A DNA stretch of 64,000 nucleotides, from assembly GCF_000348725.1 (NCBI RefSeq), contig NC_020813.1, positions 2,084,248-2,148,247 of the forward strand, given 5' to 3'. How positions within the stretch are numbered: the first letter of the stretch is position 1; every line of letters begins with the position of its first letter. The stretch comes from Pseudobdellovibrio exovorus JSS. Its GTDB lineage: Bacteria > Bdellovibrionota > Bdellovibrionia > Bdellovibrionales > Bdellovibrionaceae. The translations under genes and the position numbers were made by a program. Positions 32,804-64,000 of this stretch are shown here, piece by piece. The notes beneath the pieces are model-generated. The model saw only the letters and a list, made by a program, of their open reading frames with translations, did no database searches and had not been told where the DNA came from.

Positions 32804-32916
32804 GCCCTCCGAAAAAGCGACACATCATATGTCGCATATATTTCGAAAGCAATGATGGTGCCATGCCCAAAACTTATTTATGAAGTTTGATTCTTTTTTC
32901 AACCAAGATCTCTGAC

Positions 32917-56827: not shown

Positions 56828-57286
56828 ATGTCGGAAAATACAAAGAAAGATTTATTTTATGAGCACGGCCTTAGATTTCAATGCCAAGGTTCGGGCAAAT
56901 GCTGTACCTCACATGGCGAATTTGGCTTCGTCTTCCTCACTAAGGATGACCGCCGCCGTTTTGCCAAACACTTAAAAGTTACAACTAGCGCCTTTACCAA
57001 AAAGTATTGCGATCAAACCAATGGCATCTGGCACTTGAAAGAAGATAAAGGCAATCCTGACTGCATGTTTTTAAAGAACAAAGGTTGCTCTGTTTACGAA
57101 GCTCGCCCCAATCAGTGTCGCACGTGGCCTTTTTGGCCAGAAGTGATGAATGCCAAGGCATGGAAGTCAGAAGTCGCCAACTTCTGCCCCGGAGTCGGCA
57201 AAGGCCGTCTTTGGAGCAAAGAAGAAATCGAACAGGAAATGAGCAAAGATCGGGAAAATGAACGTAAGCTTTTAGGTGGACTATGA
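56828..57286 (+). CDS. YkgJ-family cysteine cluster protein, 152 aa
   Basis: A longer relative of the 125-residue protein at 11074: FQCQGSGKCCTSHGEFGFVFLT near residue 18, then CMFLKNKGCSVYEARPNQCRTWPFWP near 79, with a last Cys in NFCPG near 124. The eight or so Cys residues would hold a metal or iron-sulfur cluster. It opens the plus-strand run that continues through DUF4126, the kinase and the radical SAM genes, and its stop overlaps the next start by four bases. YkgJ proteins are often near tightly regulated membrane genes; no function is known. Confidence 0.87.
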   Translation: MSENTKKDLFYEHGLRFQCQGSGKCCTSHGEFGFVFLTKDDRRRFAKHLKVTTSAFTKKYCDQTNGIWHLKEDKGNPDCMFLKNKGCSVYEARPNQCRTWPFWPEVMNAKAWKSEVANFCPGVGKGRLWSKEEIEQEMSKDRENERKLLGGL

Positions 57287-57870
57287 GCCATACGGAAGTG
57301 ATCATCGCCATCATCGCGGGGATCGCCCTTTCAGCCTGCTGTGGATTCCGTGTTTTTATTCCTTTACTGATCGCGACTTTCGGTGTCCGCTTTGGTTTTA
57401 TTCCCTCAGAGTGGATCAATGAAGCCTCTGTTCATCTGATTCGCAACGATGTTTTCACGGCCGCAATTACTGTGGCCACTGTTATTGAGATCGCCGCGTA
57501 CAAAATTCCATTCGTCGATAACTTTCTAGATACTATCGCCACACCGCTAGCCGTTGTCGCCGCCACGTTACTATCGTCTTCTTTTTTCACTTTCGCAGAA
57601 GATTCCTATATGCGTTTTATTCTAGGTGCGATCACCGGTGGCCTTGGGGCTGGTATTATCCAAGCCTCCACTTCTGCTGTACGTGCGACCTCGAGCCAGT
57701 GGACGGCTGGCCTTGGTAATCCCATCTTCGCTTTGATTGAAACCATCACCGCCTTTGTCGGTTCTTTACTTGCGGTCTTATTCCCTATTCTTGGCATCCT
57801 GTTAATTCTGTTGATCTGCTGGGGCTCCCTCTGGTTACTCAAACGATTTTTCAGGACAAAAGAACGATGA
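57283..57870 (+). CDS. DUF4126 membrane protein
   Basis: The 195-residue protein has five or six hydrophobic helices and the DUF4126 layout: IAGIALSACCGFRVFIPLLIATFGVRFGFIP at the start, PLAVVAATLLSSSFF near 95 and a Gly-rich LGAITGGLGAGIIQ near 120. The function of the family is unknown. It overlaps both neighbours by four bases (stop of the YkgJ-like protein; start of the histidine kinase). The region is GC-rich (one 60-base line at 57661 has 36 G/C), in contrast to the genes that follow. Confidence 0.86.
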   Translation: MSHTEVIIAIIAGIALSACCGFRVFIPLLIATFGVRFGFIPSEWINEASVHLIRNDVFTAAITVATVIEIAAYKIPFVDNFLDTIATPLAVVAATLLSSSFFTFAEDSYMRFILGAITGGLGAGIIQASTSAVRATSSQWTAGLGNPIFALIETITAFVGSLLAVLFPILGILLILLICWGSLWLLKRFFRTKER

Positions 57871-59684
57871 AAAAGGTGTGGGGTCTTCTAAAGGAGTATT
57901 GGGGGAAGTCGCTTCTGGTGGTTTTACTGGGAGTGAGTTGTTGGGGGTTTTCTAAAGCATCATTTCATTCTATAGATTTTATTATCAGGGACGCTTTACA
58001 GCATTTCAATTTTGGATACACAGTCGATAAATCCATAGTATCTGTGAATATTGACATTACAAAAAACAATTTCACACATCCACTCAAAACTAAAGACCTT
58101 ATTAGTATTATTGATAAAATCTTATTAGGCGCCCCAAAGCATATTATATTAGTTCTTGAACCATCAGAACTATCTCAAAATCCAGAAGAGCGAATTGCTT
58201 TTTTTAACTATATTAACTCTCTTGAGAACTTCTCTTTATTTGCTTTAGAAGATTCTTATTTTGCTACGGGATTTGAATCTGATGAGGTATTTAGAAACTA
58301 TAAAAATCTCTTCTACATCACAACCACAGGGGATCGAATTAGCGCCTCAAAAAATGATGCGAAATTTAGACGCGCTCTTTTGAGTTACGACCAAATTGGG
58401 GAATCTCAAACCTCTATCAGTCTTAAAAAAATTGGAGTACAAACAAAAGAGATCTCAGATTTCAAGTATCCTTATAAATTTTGGAGAACTACTCAAGTAT
58501 ATATGAAGACTCCAAGAGTCGGAACATTTACCTTTTTCCAATCACCCAATTTTTTTACCGACAACTATCGGCCCGATTTCTTCAACAACAAGCTTGTTTT
58601 TATTGGCTCATTTAACGAGTTCTCATTTTTACATCGACCTTCAGCCCTTAACTTACTAAACAACAAATTAAATAGTAACTTTCAAGATCATTTCTATCCG
58701 TTTCAAGAGCTTGTCGCAAATTTAGTAAATTTGCATATCACTGGAGACTACATTAAGTATCTACAAAGCTGGAATGACTTAATCGTATTATTTATAGTTT
58801 TAACTTTTCTGATACTTTGCAATTTTAAACCTAAAACAAAGCTAATCTTATTCTTCTCATTGATTCCTATAAATCTGATCTTCATATTTATTTTATATAT
58901 TACCTCAAGCTACTATATTGACTTTTCTCGCTCCATTTCATTACTTATATTTGCTCAATATATTGTCGTACCACTATTAATGTTCCTAATGATGCGACTT
59001 CAGGAACAGCAGAAGCAAACTGAGCTTTTAAATGCTCGTATAGACTCTGTTTTGAGAATTTCCGAAAAAGTTGCTCATGACATTCGCTCCCCACTGTCTG
59101 TAGCGAATTTACTAATAAGTAAAGCTAAATTTGATGATCCTGAACATAAAAATCTTATAACCTCTTCACTCAAGCGAATTGATATTATCGCTGCAAATCT
59201 GTTAAAAAAATACAGAGCAACTAATTCTGAAATGAAATTAGAAGATGTTAATATCATAAATACTATTTCTGTAATTTTATCCGAAAAAAGATCCCTAAGA
59301 CCCAACATAGTGTTTAAATTAAGTGTCAAAACTGCTCTTACTCATGCCAAATCATCAGCATCAGAACTAGAACGTGTGATCAGCAATCTAATTGATAACT
59401 CCATCGATGCAACCCAGACGCAAGAATCACCCCAAATCACTATTGAACTTAGTGCTCTCTCTAATCAGTTCCTTATTACAATCTCTGACAATGGTGTTGG
59501 TATTTCTAGTGATATGCTAGCTTTATTAGGGCAACAAAGAATCACCTCAAAAAAAGATACTGGCGGCAATGGAATTGGTCTTTTACATGCAAAGCAAACA
59601 ATTGAAATGATGGGTGGTACCCTAGAGATTTCAAGTACAGAAAATATCGGCACGTCCATCGTAATTCGACTAATTCAAATATAA
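57867..59684 (+). CDS. CHASE2-domain sensor histidine kinase 1
   Basis: The 605-residue protein has an N-terminal membrane helix (about 14-30), a large extracytoplasmic CHASE2-like sensor domain (about 35-290), three membrane helices (about 305-380), a short coiled coil and a kinase core. His404 lies in VAHDIRSPLSVANLLI; the N-box (SNLIDNSIDATQ) and G-boxes (SDNGVGISSDM and GNGIGLLHAKQ) are present. It overlaps the DUF4126 stop by four bases and is 52 bases upstream of the radical SAM gene. Its first 90 bases are G-rich like the upstream genes, while the rest is very AT-rich. Confidence 0.9.
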   Translation: MKKVWGLLKEYWGKSLLVVLLGVSCWGFSKASFHSIDFIIRDALQHFNFGYTVDKSIVSVNIDITKNNFTHPLKTKDLISIIDKILLGAPKHIILVLEPSELSQNPEERIAFFNYINSLENFSLFALEDSYFATGFESDEVFRNYKNLFYITTTGDRISASKNDAKFRRALLSYDQIGESQTSISLKKIGVQTKEISDFKYPYKFWRTTQVYMKTPRVGTFTFFQSPNFFTDNYRPDFFNNKLVFIGSFNEFSFLHRPSALNLLNNKLNSNFQDHFYPFQELVANLVNLHITGDYIKYLQSWNDLIVLFIVLTFLILCNFKPKTKLILFFSLIPINLIFIFILYITSSYYIDFSRSISLLIFAQYIVVPLLMFLMMRLQEQQKQTELLNARIDSVLRISEKVAHDIRSPLSVANLLISKAKFDDPEHKNLITSSLKRIDIIAANLLKKYRATNSEMKLEDVNIINTISVILSEKRSLRPNIVFKLSVKTALTHAKSSASELERVISNLIDNSIDATQTQESPQITIELSALSNQFLITISDNGVGISSDMLALLGQQRITSKKDTGGNGIGLLHAKQTIEMMGGTLEISSTENIGTSIVIRLIQI

Positions 59685-59736
59685 TCTGGCTACATATTTG
59701 CTAGATTAATCTTTAAATCACTGTACTAGGGATAAA

Positions 59737-61104
59737 ATGGAACTAAAACGATTTAAAGATATTATTGCAATTAGAAAGCCGACAAGTGTTGATTCTTTTG
59801 ACAGTATCGTTGCGTTTCATGCTTCAAACCTAGAGGTCGCAGAGCTAAGTCTAGAGGCCTTTGAGGCAATGCAAGAAATTTCAATTACTACCGATGAACA
59901 ACCTCATTTAACACCTCACCCGCTAAGTGATGCGTATAATGCTCTTAACGATTGGAATGAAGAACCGTCATCTACCCAGCTTCGTTCTGGCAGAATAACT
60001 TCACAAATCAAAAACTTAACGATAAATGTTAGTCAAATATGCAATCTTAAATGCAACTATTGCTCTGCTGGAGGAGATGGAACATACGGAGCTCCTACTT
60101 TACAGATTTCAATAGAAAAAACTCTTCCGCAAATTAGTTTTTTTATATCTCGTCTGCCCCCTCAATCAACATTTTCGATTTCTTTTATCGGCGGTGAGCC
60201 ACTACTTTACCCACATGCAATAAAAGCAATCTATGACTATACAGTGAACCTATGTCTAGAAAGGGGCATAACTTCTGTTTTTAAGATAGTGACTAATGGC
60301 ACACTTGTTTCTAATTCAGAAACAATAAGTATATTGCGAACGATGAAATTAGACTTAACGATCAGTATAGATGGCACAAGAGACGTAAATGATTTAGTTC
60401 GCCCTTCAAAAGACAACAATAGTACTACAGATAAAATTCTTGAGGGTCTTCGGCTTTTAAATGAAGATCGCGGGAATATCTCTCTTATACATTTCTCCGC
60501 TATTACTTCAAAACACAACACGGATATAACAAGTAACTACTTGTTTTTGATGTCCTTAAACCCTGACTCCGTAGACTTTATATTTGATAATGAATCTTTC
60601 GATGACTTACTATTGGAAAAATTTATTACTGAAATAAACAATGTTGCCAAAATAGCTTGGCAAAAAGGTGGAGAACGTGAACTCCGCAAAATTCGCACTT
60701 TTGACCACTATTTCTCCTTACTAGATGGTCAGCAACGTGTGGAAAATCACTGCGGAGCTGGAAAAACCCACTTAACAATTGATGCAAAAAATCGCCTCTT
60801 TAGCTGTGTTTGGGACCCAAATGATCTCAAGACATCTGTAGGGCAACATAGCCAAATAGAAGATTCCGCCATATCTAAGTACTCGAAATCACTGATAGAA
60901 CTAAACAACTGCAATTCCTGTTGGGCTCGCTATCTATGTGGCGGAGGCTGTATGTACATCAATAATTTGCATACAGGTGATAAACACAATAAGAGTGTTT
61001 CTTTCTGCAAAAAGACAAGAAGCTTGATTTTGACAACACTTATATATTACAAAATAGCTCGTATTGAGCAGCAGTGTTCTGATACTGAAGGAGGGATATT
61101 ATGA
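59737..61104 (+). CDS. radical SAM/SPASM peptide maturase
   Basis: The 455-residue protein has an N-terminal region (1-95) of the kind found before many RiPP-modifying radical SAM domains. The [4Fe-4S] radical SAM motif CNLKCNYC is at Cys102, Cys106 and Cys109, followed by SAGGDGTYG, then a GGEPLL strand (about 148) typical of the SAM-binding barrel. The C-terminal SPASM domain has the Cys set HCGAG, FSCVW, CNSCWARYLCGGGC and SFCKK for two auxiliary clusters. Enzymes of this build install carbon-carbon or thioether links in ribosomal peptides. Its TGA overlaps the ATG of the 33-residue peptide gene. It is flanked by CHASE2 kinase genes. Confidence 0.92.
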   Translation: MELKRFKDIIAIRKPTSVDSFDSIVAFHASNLEVAELSLEAFEAMQEISITTDEQPHLTPHPLSDAYNALNDWNEEPSSTQLRSGRITSQIKNLTINVSQICNLKCNYCSAGGDGTYGAPTLQISIEKTLPQISFFISRLPPQSTFSISFIGGEPLLYPHAIKAIYDYTVNLCLERGITSVFKIVTNGTLVSNSETISILRTMKLDLTISIDGTRDVNDLVRPSKDNNSTTDKILEGLRLLNEDRGNISLIHFSAITSKHNTDITSNYLFLMSLNPDSVDFIFDNESFDDLLLEKFITEINNVAKIAWQKGGERELRKIRTFDHYFSLLDGQQRVENHCGAGKTHLTIDAKNRLFSCVWDPNDLKTSVGQHSQIEDSAISKYSKSLIELNNCNSCWARYLCGGGCMYINNLHTGDKHNKSVSFCKKTRSLILTTLIYYKIARIEQQCSDTEGGIL

Positions 61105-61202
61105 AAAAGGCGCAACACATTAAAAAAGTTAAACCGAATCCTAAATCAGCTTCTCCTTTGGTAAAAGGAGCACTGGGGACATCTTGTACTCCAACAAATT
61201 AG
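61101..61202 (+). CDS. RiPP precursor peptide candidate, 33 aa
   Basis: The ORF starts at an ATGA overlap with the maturase stop, has GGAGGG eight bases upstream, and is too short to appear in length-filtered lists. The N-terminal 22 residues are Lys-rich (seven Lys) and look like a leader; the C-terminal part GALGTSCTPTN has the only Cys (29) of the peptide and no aromatic residue. A thioether from Cys29 to a neighbouring residue is the simplest product if the maturase is of the sactipeptide/ranthipeptide kind; this is inference. No dedicated protease or exporter gene is in the window. It is 26 bases before kinase 2. Confidence 0.75.
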   Translation: MKKAQHIKKVKPNPKSASPLVKGALGTSCTPTN

Positions 61203-61228
61203 TTGATAGTACAAAGCCGTAGCTTTTT

Positions 61229-63109
61229 GTGAAAAATATTTCTTCTAAAACTCTAGCTTTACTACGATCAATCCACTTTTCTTATTATAAAATCGCATTT
61301 GCACTTGTTGCTACAATTATCATTAGTTCTTTTAAATTTGAGCTGGTAGAGCTTTTTCTCTTTGATTTAGGTACTACCATCAAAGCAGATCTTGGTCTTT
61401 CAAATCCAAAAAACAAAAAGATCACTCTTATTTATATTGATTCAAATACCATTGAATCTTTTAACGGCTATCCATCGTACAAAGATCATAGCACTTTCCT
61501 AGAAAAACTCTCTTTATACAAGTCGTCACAGATCGTCTATAATTTTCGCTTTGAAAACAAACAGATTATAGAAATCTCTGGTAGCACTAACGATCAGAAA
61601 CTCTTTGCTAAAACGGCATCCACCTTTAGCAATCTTTACTTTATAACCGATGACCTTGAGCTTAAAGGCCAAGAAAGTAATTTAAAGCTCGCCGCTCCAC
61701 TAAATGATTTACAGGTTGTCTCAGGACCACGAACAAAAGATATAAAACTTAATCCAAAAAATAAAATTAGTCGTCGTATATTGATTAGCTATCAGGATCA
61801 GCTCTTAATCCATCAAAGACTAGCGAGCATATATAACCCCAGCATCGTAAATGTAGAAAATATCAGAGGTAAATATCACTACATTGGAACAGATCAAGTC
61901 TACATTGATTTCCACAAGCCCAACTCATTTGATGCATTTAGATTCGAAGATGTTTTATCTGGCAATGTTCCCCCACAGTACTTAACAGATCGAATTATAT
62001 TAATTGGTACAAATACAAATAAATTCATTGAAGATTATGTTGCTACTCCTTATTCATCTGAAACACCTGATCTTATTACTATAACGGAACTTCAAGCCAA
62101 TATGTTCCAAACATTAATTGACAATAGCGCTCCTCAAAAAGTGCCGCCTTATATTAATATTATTGTAACAGCCGCTATTTCAATTTTAACAGTATATGTA
62201 GCCCTCTCAATGACACCATCTAAAGGCATTATGCTTTTAGTAAGTACCTTCTTGGGGTATAGTTTTCTTGCTGTTATACTTTTATACTTCAACATCTGGA
62301 TCGGGATGGCGCATCCGTTGCTTACGATCTTTTTGTGTTATTACTTTTTTATTCCTTATCGTCTGATCATTGAAAATCGGCGCAGTTGGGAGTACCTGCA
62401 AAAGAATAAACTTCTACAACAGGTAGAAGAACTCAAAAGTAATTTTATCTCGATGATGTCTCACGATTTGAAAACCCCTATCGCACGCATTCAGGGGATG
62501 ACGGAGGTTATTCTGAAAGATAACATCTCGTTGAGCTCAAATCAGCGCGAGGCTGTAGACACAATCAAAAGCAGCTCGGATGATCTTTTGCGCTTTATCA
62601 ATTCAATTCTGCAGTATGGACGTATCGAAAGCCAAGGGATCGAACTCAATCGTCAATCCAAGGATATCAATAAAATCCTACAAGAGATCGTCAAGAAACA
62701 CGATTTCCTTGCCAAGGTTAAACGTATCAAGCTCACAACAGATCTAGAGCCGATGTTCCCGGTTTCGGTGGATTCAGAGCTTGTTCGCCAAGTTTTTTCT
62801 AACCTGATCGAAAACGCTATCAAGTACAGTCCCGAAGAGTCCACAGTCACGATCAAGTCCTATGAAAGTGCGGATAAAGTGATTATTGAAATTCAAGATC
62901 AGGGCGTGGGGATTCCTCCGGAAGAGATTTCTAATATCTTTATGAAATTTTACCGCAGCCAAAATGCTAAGACCTCAACTATCAAAGGTACGGGCCTTGG
63001 CCTTTACCTAGCCCAATACTTTATTCAGTTACACAAGGGCGAAATCACTGTTACCAGTGAAGTTCAAAAGGGCTCTGTCTTCCGCGTTGAGCTACCGATC
63101 AACTCTTAG
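61229..63109 (+). CDS. CHASE2-domain sensor histidine kinase 2
   Basis: The 626-residue protein has the same layout as kinase 1: one N-terminal membrane helix (about 18-34), a CHASE2-type sensor domain (about 40-300), three membrane helices (about 305-380), and a HisKA/HATPase core. His412 is in MMSHDLKTPIARIQ; N-box (SNLIENAIKYS) and G-boxes (DQGVGIPPEE and GTGLGLYLAQYF) are clear. The sensor half is AT-rich, the kinase half of normal composition. The start codon is GTG with no Shine-Dalgarno site, so it may depend on translation of the peptide gene 26 bases upstream. The NtrC-type regulator gene follows 139 bases downstream. Confidence 0.9.
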   Translation: MKNISSKTLALLRSIHFSYYKIAFALVATIIISSFKFELVELFLFDLGTTIKADLGLSNPKNKKITLIYIDSNTIESFNGYPSYKDHSTFLEKLSLYKSSQIVYNFRFENKQIIEISGSTNDQKLFAKTASTFSNLYFITDDLELKGQESNLKLAAPLNDLQVVSGPRTKDIKLNPKNKISRRILISYQDQLLIHQRLASIYNPSIVNVENIRGKYHYIGTDQVYIDFHKPNSFDAFRFEDVLSGNVPPQYLTDRIILIGTNTNKFIEDYVATPYSSETPDLITITELQANMFQTLIDNSAPQKVPPYINIIVTAAISILTVYVALSMTPSKGIMLLVSTFLGYSFLAVILLYFNIWIGMAHPLLTIFLCYYFFIPYRLIIENRRSWEYLQKNKLLQQVEELKSNFISMMSHDLKTPIARIQGMTEVILKDNISLSSNQREAVDTIKSSSDDLLRFINSILQYGRIESQGIELNRQSKDINKILQEIVKKHDFLAKVKRIKLTTDLEPMFPVSVDSELVRQVFSNLIENAIKYSPEESTVTIKSYESADKVIIEIQDQGVGIPPEEISNIFMKFYRSQNAKTSTIKGTGLGLYLAQYFIQLHKGEITVTSEVQKGSVFRVELPINS

Positions 63110-63248: not shown

Positions 63249-64000
63249 ATGCTTAAAGTTCTTGTTGTTGATGACGATCAGGCCCTACGCTTTTCAGTCA
63301 GATCAGCTCTTGAAGCTACGAAAAAGTTCTATATTGAAGAGGCCTTCGATGGTGTGAATGCTATTGAAAAAATCAAAGAAAGAACTGCAGAAAAGAACAA
63401 AACACAACAAGCTGGAGCTCGCGCTTTCGATATCGTTATTTTAGACGTGGATATGCCACGCAAAAATGGTCTGAATACACTTAAAGAAATTAAAGAAATG
63501 GACCCCGGCATTATCGTATTAATGCTCACGGCACACGCCACAGTAGAAGTGGCCGTACAAGCAGTTAAAGACGGCGCCTATAACTTCTTATCTAAACCCC
63601 TATCTAGTGATGAGCTGATTCAATTAATCGATAAGGCCGTTACGGCACACACTCTGATTTCAACACTGGCTGTATCGTCTCCGGTATTTGTAGATGAAGG
63701 CCGTAAAATCATCGGCAACACCTCGCAAATGCAAAAGGTCTTCAATGTTATCCACAAGCTCGCTAAGGTTGATACTCCTGTATTAATTCGTGGCGCTTCA
63801 GGTACAGGTAAAGAATTAGTAGCTAAAGCGATTCACTTCAACTCTGCACGCAAAGACGAAAAGTTTGTTGCTATTAACTGCTCAGCTATTCCTGAAAATC
63901 TTTTTGAGTCAGAACTTTTTGGTCACGAAAAAGGATCTTTCACTGGAGCCAGTGAACGCAAAATCGGTAAGTTTCAATTTGCCGAAGGTGGAACTCTATT
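63249..64000 (+). CDS. sigma-54-dependent NtrC-type response regulator, 5' part
   Basis: The reading frame is open to the end of the window (250 codons shown). A receiver domain comes first (VLVVDDDQA, Asp66 in [11 protein letters not shown], Lys in FLSKPL) with a short insertion of about 12 residues rich in Lys and Gln that moves the phosphoacceptor from the usual ~54. The AAA+ domain follows: Walker [16 protein letters not shown], then [13 protein letters not shown], in which the sigma-54 contact loop GAFTGA is GSFTGA. The start follows TTGGAGG. It is the obvious partner of the CHASE2 kinases upstream. No -24/-12 promoter is seen before it. Confidence 0.9.

Follow-up and report, generated by a model that had tools for sequence, protein, structure and literature searches.

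In Gram-positive bacteria, peptide pherotypes are known to switch when a cassette of modifier, peptide, and receptor is exchanged. In Rgg/SHP loci, the RiPP is a product distinct from the signal, which is a separate short peptide, and no histidine kinase is known to take part. The streptococcal Rgg/SHP RaS-RiPP loci tie radical-SAM-modified peptides to peptide signalling (PMC13361665, PMC8092268). In the ComQXPA system of Bacillus, the sensor domain of the kinase is variable and the cytoplasmic kinase domain is conserved, and the peptide varies most at its C-terminal core (PMC4008528). In the literature searched, no pairing between a CHASE2 kinase and a RiPP maturase came up.

The window analysed here is a stretch of 64,000 nucleotides (bases 2084248-2148247) from the single contig of the Pseudobdellovibrio exovorus JSS genome (2657893 bases). 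Among named organisms, Pseudobdellovibrio and 'Bdellovibrio sp. qaytius' are the closest relatives. Near the end of the window, the gene order is PPsyn (- strand), CxxCxxCC, DUF4126, kinase 1, radical SAM/SPASM maturase, 33-aa peptide, kinase 2, and NtrC regulator. The maturase, peptide, kinase 2, and NtrC genes are adjacent on one strand. The order of modifier, pre-peptide, histidine kinase, and response regulator is the same as that of the four adjacent same-strand ComQXPA genes. As in ComQXPA, the modifier, peptide, and sensor are variable and the kinase half and regulator are conserved, although the differences here are between species and not yet within one. The parts themselves differ. 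The modifier is a radical SAM/SPASM enzyme (PF04055), whereas ComQ is an isoprenyl transferase, and this locus has a CHASE2 kinase receptor and an NtrC-type regulator with a sigma-54 promoter, in Gram-negative predators. In all genome comparisons, the present genome is G000 and the sample contains one genome per species, and the comparisons are between species.

The maturase (59737..61104, + strand) has the CxxxCxxC motif, the SPASM cysteines, and the adjacent small precursor that define a radical SAM/SPASM peptide maturase. Its invariant cysteines are C102, C106, C109, C339, C357, C392, C395, C401, C405, and C424. The best NCBIfam match is PapB (NF047865) with 151 bits, below the cut-off of 340, and the closest solved structure is 5wgg. 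The enzyme resembles the PapB/CteB-type maturases of ranthipeptides and SCIFF in best family, structure, CxxxCxxC motif, and C-terminal SPASM cysteines, but it is far below both cut-offs, and its precursor has one Cys in CxP where theirs have many. The precursor peptide, MKKAQHIKKVKPNPKSASPLVKGALGTSCTPTN (61101..61202, + strand), overlaps the maturase stop with its start (ATGA). Of 49 maturase loci, 48 contain a small ORF in which a Cys close to the end is part of CxP or CP, most with an HIKKxKP-like N-terminus. The window peptide and nearly all of its relatives have one Cys, in the CxP core, and are not Cys-rich. The core around this Cys is conserved in the genus members lacking kinase 1 (TG[IL][AS]C[IVP]P, 74%) and different in each kinase-1 carrier (mean 38%). 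A variable peptide core, taken with the history that maturase and sensor half have in common, recalls comQXP (PMC4008528). In G199 (L055), two tandem precursor peptides with related cores lie downstream of the maturase.

A sigma-54 promoter-like element, TGGCTACATATTTGCT (59687..59702, + strand), lies after kinase 1, 35 bp upstream of the maturase start. Counted at a score of at least 9 of 11, 35 of 48 loci had a TGGC...TTGC element before the maturase, mostly 28-82 bp from the start, compared with 0.46 expected by shuffling and 10 of 355 control upstream regions. The scan of the whole window gave no excess (31 found, 32 expected); only at the maturase start, compared across relatives, does the signal emerge. 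A perfect sigma-54 consensus match is located at 32848-32863 on the - strand. The local scan for a sigma-70 promoter and a terminator gave no excess. The last gene of the locus encodes an NtrC-type sigma-54 response regulator of 526 aa (63249..63998, + strand; PF00072 and PF00158), which extends beyond the window end. A predicted activator of the sigma-54 promoter is encoded in the same locus as the conserved -24/-12 element, and autoinduction would be the simplest reading of this arrangement.

Kinase 2 begins with GTG. Its sensor half contains CHASE2 (PF05226) and the first TM pair (61229..62285, + strand), and its output half contains the last TM helix, HisKA, and HATPase (62286..63109, + strand). 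CHASE2, HisKA, and HATPase all exceed the Pfam cut-offs, as in CHASE2 sensor histidine kinases. In the structural model, the output half opens with helix 361-430, which comprises the last TM helix and continues into the kinase core. Among the Foldseek matches listed, only the cytoplasmic half of the model matched solved kinases. Kinase 1 (57867..59684, + strand) is AT-rich and contains a CHASE2-like sensor, TM helices, and a histidine kinase. It has an HATPase_c match in Pfam, and profile comparison matched it to kinase 2 over the full length (E 7e-39). The initial annotation called it a CHASE2 kinase; its place in the family comes from profile comparison only, with no Pfam CHASE2 match. Kinase 1 is present in 5 of 14 genus members, and within the genus it lies beside the maturase solely in two non-sister lineages, clades A and B. 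The rooted kinase 1 tree settled no topology (p 0.24). In Bdellovibrio, kinase-1-like CHASE2 kinases with 24-28% identity to kinase 1 divergently adjoin the maturase (L067:5155-7356; neighbours in G101, G083, and G154). A CHASE5 kinase occupies this position in L055 (7724-9265).

In 47 of 54 Bdellovibrionales loci, drawn from the family and the order, maturase, peptide, and kinase 2 were neighbours, and NtrC was nearly always next; some of these loci were fetched through their maturase match. Full-length maturase relatives came almost only from Bdellovibrio-like records of the genome collection, apart from a few MAG titles that were unspecific or evidently mislabelled, followed by a drop in identity to generic SPASM enzymes. 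The gene comparison indicates that maturase, peptide, intact kinase 2, and NtrC form an old locus of the Bdellovibrionales. Six order-level relatives have kinase 2 and NtrC without maturase or peptide, so another input for kinase 2 is possible. A protein family of about 650-810 aa is encoded upstream of the maturase in several genera (L063, L070, L087, L092, L095, L096, L103, L067, and L098). The members scanned had no Pfam match, and the two that were read had an apparent signal peptide.

We regard a signalling role of the locus as an even call. The peptide could instead be an antibacterial or prey-directed product, with kinase 2 and NtrC timing its making and not sensing it. The organisms are predators, and radical SAM RiPPs are often antimicrobial. 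In G148, an SbmA/BacA-like peptide ABC transporter (L066:5574-7280), a candidate transporter of the peptide, lies directly upstream of the maturase. However, nearly every maturase-bearing genome of the order has one conserved peptide per locus, the maturase shares its history with the sensor half, and no exporter, protease, or immunity gene was conserved in the relatives' loci compared. We consider an antibacterial or prey-directed product rather unlikely.

The GC content was 0.48-0.50 at 56900-57950, fell to 0.30 at 57950, and returned to 0.42 past 62300. The AT-rich block that the initial annotation had placed at 57960-62300 is real. Sliding GC and codon-level analysis both found the steps at about 57950 and 62300, and its coordinates were right within about 20 bp. 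The background was 640 windows of 4341 bp and 277 genes from a 400 kb sample of the same genome. The GC of the block (0.346) was lower than that of all 640 equal-length windows, whose minimum was 0.368. The GC3 values of kinase 1, the maturase, and kinase 2 residues 1-320 were 0.30, 0.31, and 0.27, respectively, all at or below the 4th percentile of the sampled genes. The GC3 of kinase 2 changed at codon 352 (interval 324-355), position 62285 of the window, and none of 300 permutations was equally strong. All five kinase-1 carriers showed a step in kinase 2 (codons 352, 360, 345, 342, and 321), and none was significant in the six kinase-1-lacking genus members with complete genes. The initial annotation had taken a block of normal composition in relatives as evidence against its reading; such a block was found in the kinase-1-lacking genus members and not in the kinase-1 carriers. 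It had also described the part of kinase 2 after 62300 as genome-like. The step is there, but the GC3 of this half (0.50) is well above that of the genome sample (0.39), and part of the right-hand step is due to this high GC3. At 62286-63109, GC3 lies at the 97th percentile, and it is likewise unusually high in several other genus members.

On the left, the GC3 change point fell at kinase 1 codon 27 (interval 14-32). It was strong when DUF4126 was included and weak within kinase 1 alone (p 0.03). In relatives, PPsyn and CxxCxxCC are followed by ferredoxin-like and men-type genes, and PBP-MBL genes are followed by the maturase, with or without kinase 1 between them. Both junctions are swapped in G000, G198, and G201. 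The junction interval common to these three genomes is 57287..57866 (unstranded), with reciprocally swapped flanks, and the second junction lies near 573 kb, the mirror of 2.14 Mb about the origin. The zinc/iron-chelating CxxCxxCC gene (56828..57286, + strand; PF03692), the last gene of the segment delivered by the inversion, adjoins the ferredoxin-like/men-type genes in other genus members, and kinase 1 only in clade A. The gene for the DUF4126 membrane protein (57283..57870, + strand; PF13548) is found at this site in the present genome only and is absent there in G198 and G201. The reciprocal flanks indicate that the left composition step coincides with an inversion junction; this edge, previously read as an insertion edge, is explained by the inversion.

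The species tree was based on rpoB, secA, and gyrB and was built without the rpoB row of G171 (end branch 10; the reading frame was probably wrong). Clade A, comprising the present genome, G198, G201, and G195, adjoins G104/G199/G193/G197 in this tree, and clade B (G159/G194) lies across the genus root. A single clade of A and B, or of the kinase-1 carriers, was rejected (p 3e-5). The maturase tree grouped A with B (100/99) and rejected the species clade (p 0.0015). This conflict persisted without the two most diverged, longest rows (p 0.002) and after Dayhoff recoding (98). The sensor half of kinase 2 also rejected the species clade (p 0.008) and placed G201 with B. With the long rows removed, the maturase and sensor rows of G201 grouped with G159/G194 at 100/99 and 96/91, respectively. 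NtrC, in contrast, supported the species clade (98/98) and rejected the alternative (p 0.006). The kinase half of kinase 2 agreed with the species tree, and its conflict with A+B was weak when this half was taken alone (p 0.07).

Likelihoods of two topologies, the species topology and the cassette topology suggested by the maturase, were compared in windows of 120 residues. The cassette topology was favoured in all six maturase windows and the first five kinase 2 windows, and the species topology in all four later kinase 2 windows and all seven NtrC windows. The switch fell between kinase 2 windows 242-362 and 303-422, that is, within residues 303-362, and the likelihood sign was constant on either side. 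Within clade A, identity was 32-40% in the sensor half and 76-88% in the kinase half, and it climbed from some 45% to 98-100% around residues 360-380, shortly beyond the composition step. Identity and topology both point to vertical inheritance of the output half. The tree conflict and the GC3 step bear out the initial annotation in two respects: the block has a history different from that of its flanks, and it ends on the right within kinase 2 where that annotation had put the boundary. The partial Mantel test of the maturase against the sensor half was significant but hardly specific, its partial r of 0.41 being only slightly higher than the value for the kinase half (0.35). Taken together, we hold it to be likely that maturase, peptide, and sensor half were exchanged between lineages.

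The same presence pattern and tree conflict could arise if the genus ancestor already had two old allele types, one carrying kinase 1 and one lacking it, that were sorted or lost differentially with no later transfer, as trans-species polymorphism or hidden paralogy. The kinase-1-like kinases lying divergently beside the maturase in some Bdellovibrio suggest that kinase 1 may be old. Such a history, however, needs several losses of kinase 1 and long upkeep of both types, and it still needs recombination inside kinase 2 because the output half follows the species tree. We consider it unlikely. Alternatively, there was no exchange, and the maturase, peptide, and sensor of the kinase-1 carriers evolved rapidly where they are, driven by diversifying or relaxed selection, with AT-richness as a by-product of weak codon selection. 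In every pair, including those with no exchange, the sensor half indeed changes more quickly than the kinase half, and the two fast rows, G000 and G198, have the highest AT content. Saturation of synonymous sites in all pairs prevents dS from telling exchange apart from fast evolution in place. But rate changes alone do not group the G201 maturase and sensor rows with G159/G194, rate alone does not switch the topology at the codon of the composition step, and kinase 1 is common to the same two non-sister lineages. This makes evolution in place quite unlikely.

The initial annotation proposed that a block with most of kinase 1, the maturase, the peptide, and a sensor half was inserted into a single CHASE2 kinase and split it; this predicts the two composition steps where they are found, but it is extremely improbable, since kinase 2 is intact and full-length beside maturase and peptide in relatives without kinase 1, the two kinases are separate, complete, distantly related proteins (about 18% identical), an inversion junction flanks the kinase 1 N-terminus, and the age of the maturase-peptide-kinase 2 locus across the family and order implies that no split of kinase 2 ever took place. 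Intragenomic conversion between the two kinases was also considered and rejected, at about 18% identity.

We believe that the AT-rich stretch is probably an exchanged specificity cassette in an ancient peptide-signalling locus, the putative signalling steps included. In the ancestors of clade A, homologous replacement would have introduced a maturase, peptide, and kinase 2 sensor half of foreign origin. Kinase 1 most likely arrived with this cassette, and the donor may have been a lineage near B. qaytius. The right crossover would lie at about codon 350 of kinase 2, just before the last TM helix and a strongly conserved stretch, and the kinase 2 output half and NtrC would have been retained. 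A separate inversion, symmetrical about the origin, placed the PPsyn-CxxC genes before kinase 1. In the present cell, the matured peptide may be recognised by the CHASE2 sensor of kinase 2, kinase 2 may phosphorylate NtrC, and NtrC may activate the sigma-54 promoter upstream of the maturase, leading to autoinduction. The gene content, the composition steps, the tree conflict with its position, the inversion, and the promoter conservation are observed, and we infer peptide modification, export, binding by kinase 2, feedback, and a role of kinase 1. A joint swap of peptide, maturase, and sensor could create a new signal specificity and leave the output untouched.

Tentatively, the locus may represent a RiPP-based pheromone system of predatory Gram-negative bacteria, with a radical-SAM-modified peptide, a CHASE2 kinase, amplification through NtrC and sigma-54, and dialects created by exchange of maturase, peptide, and sensor half as a single cassette. 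No such system is described in the literature searched. It would add a RiPP family with a regulatory rather than an antimicrobial context. A conserved counterpart in the Bdellovibrionales would provide a testable cell-cell signal for predatory bacteria. With its predicted promoter and receptor, one small peptide would allow experiments on when these predators attack, divide, or stop.
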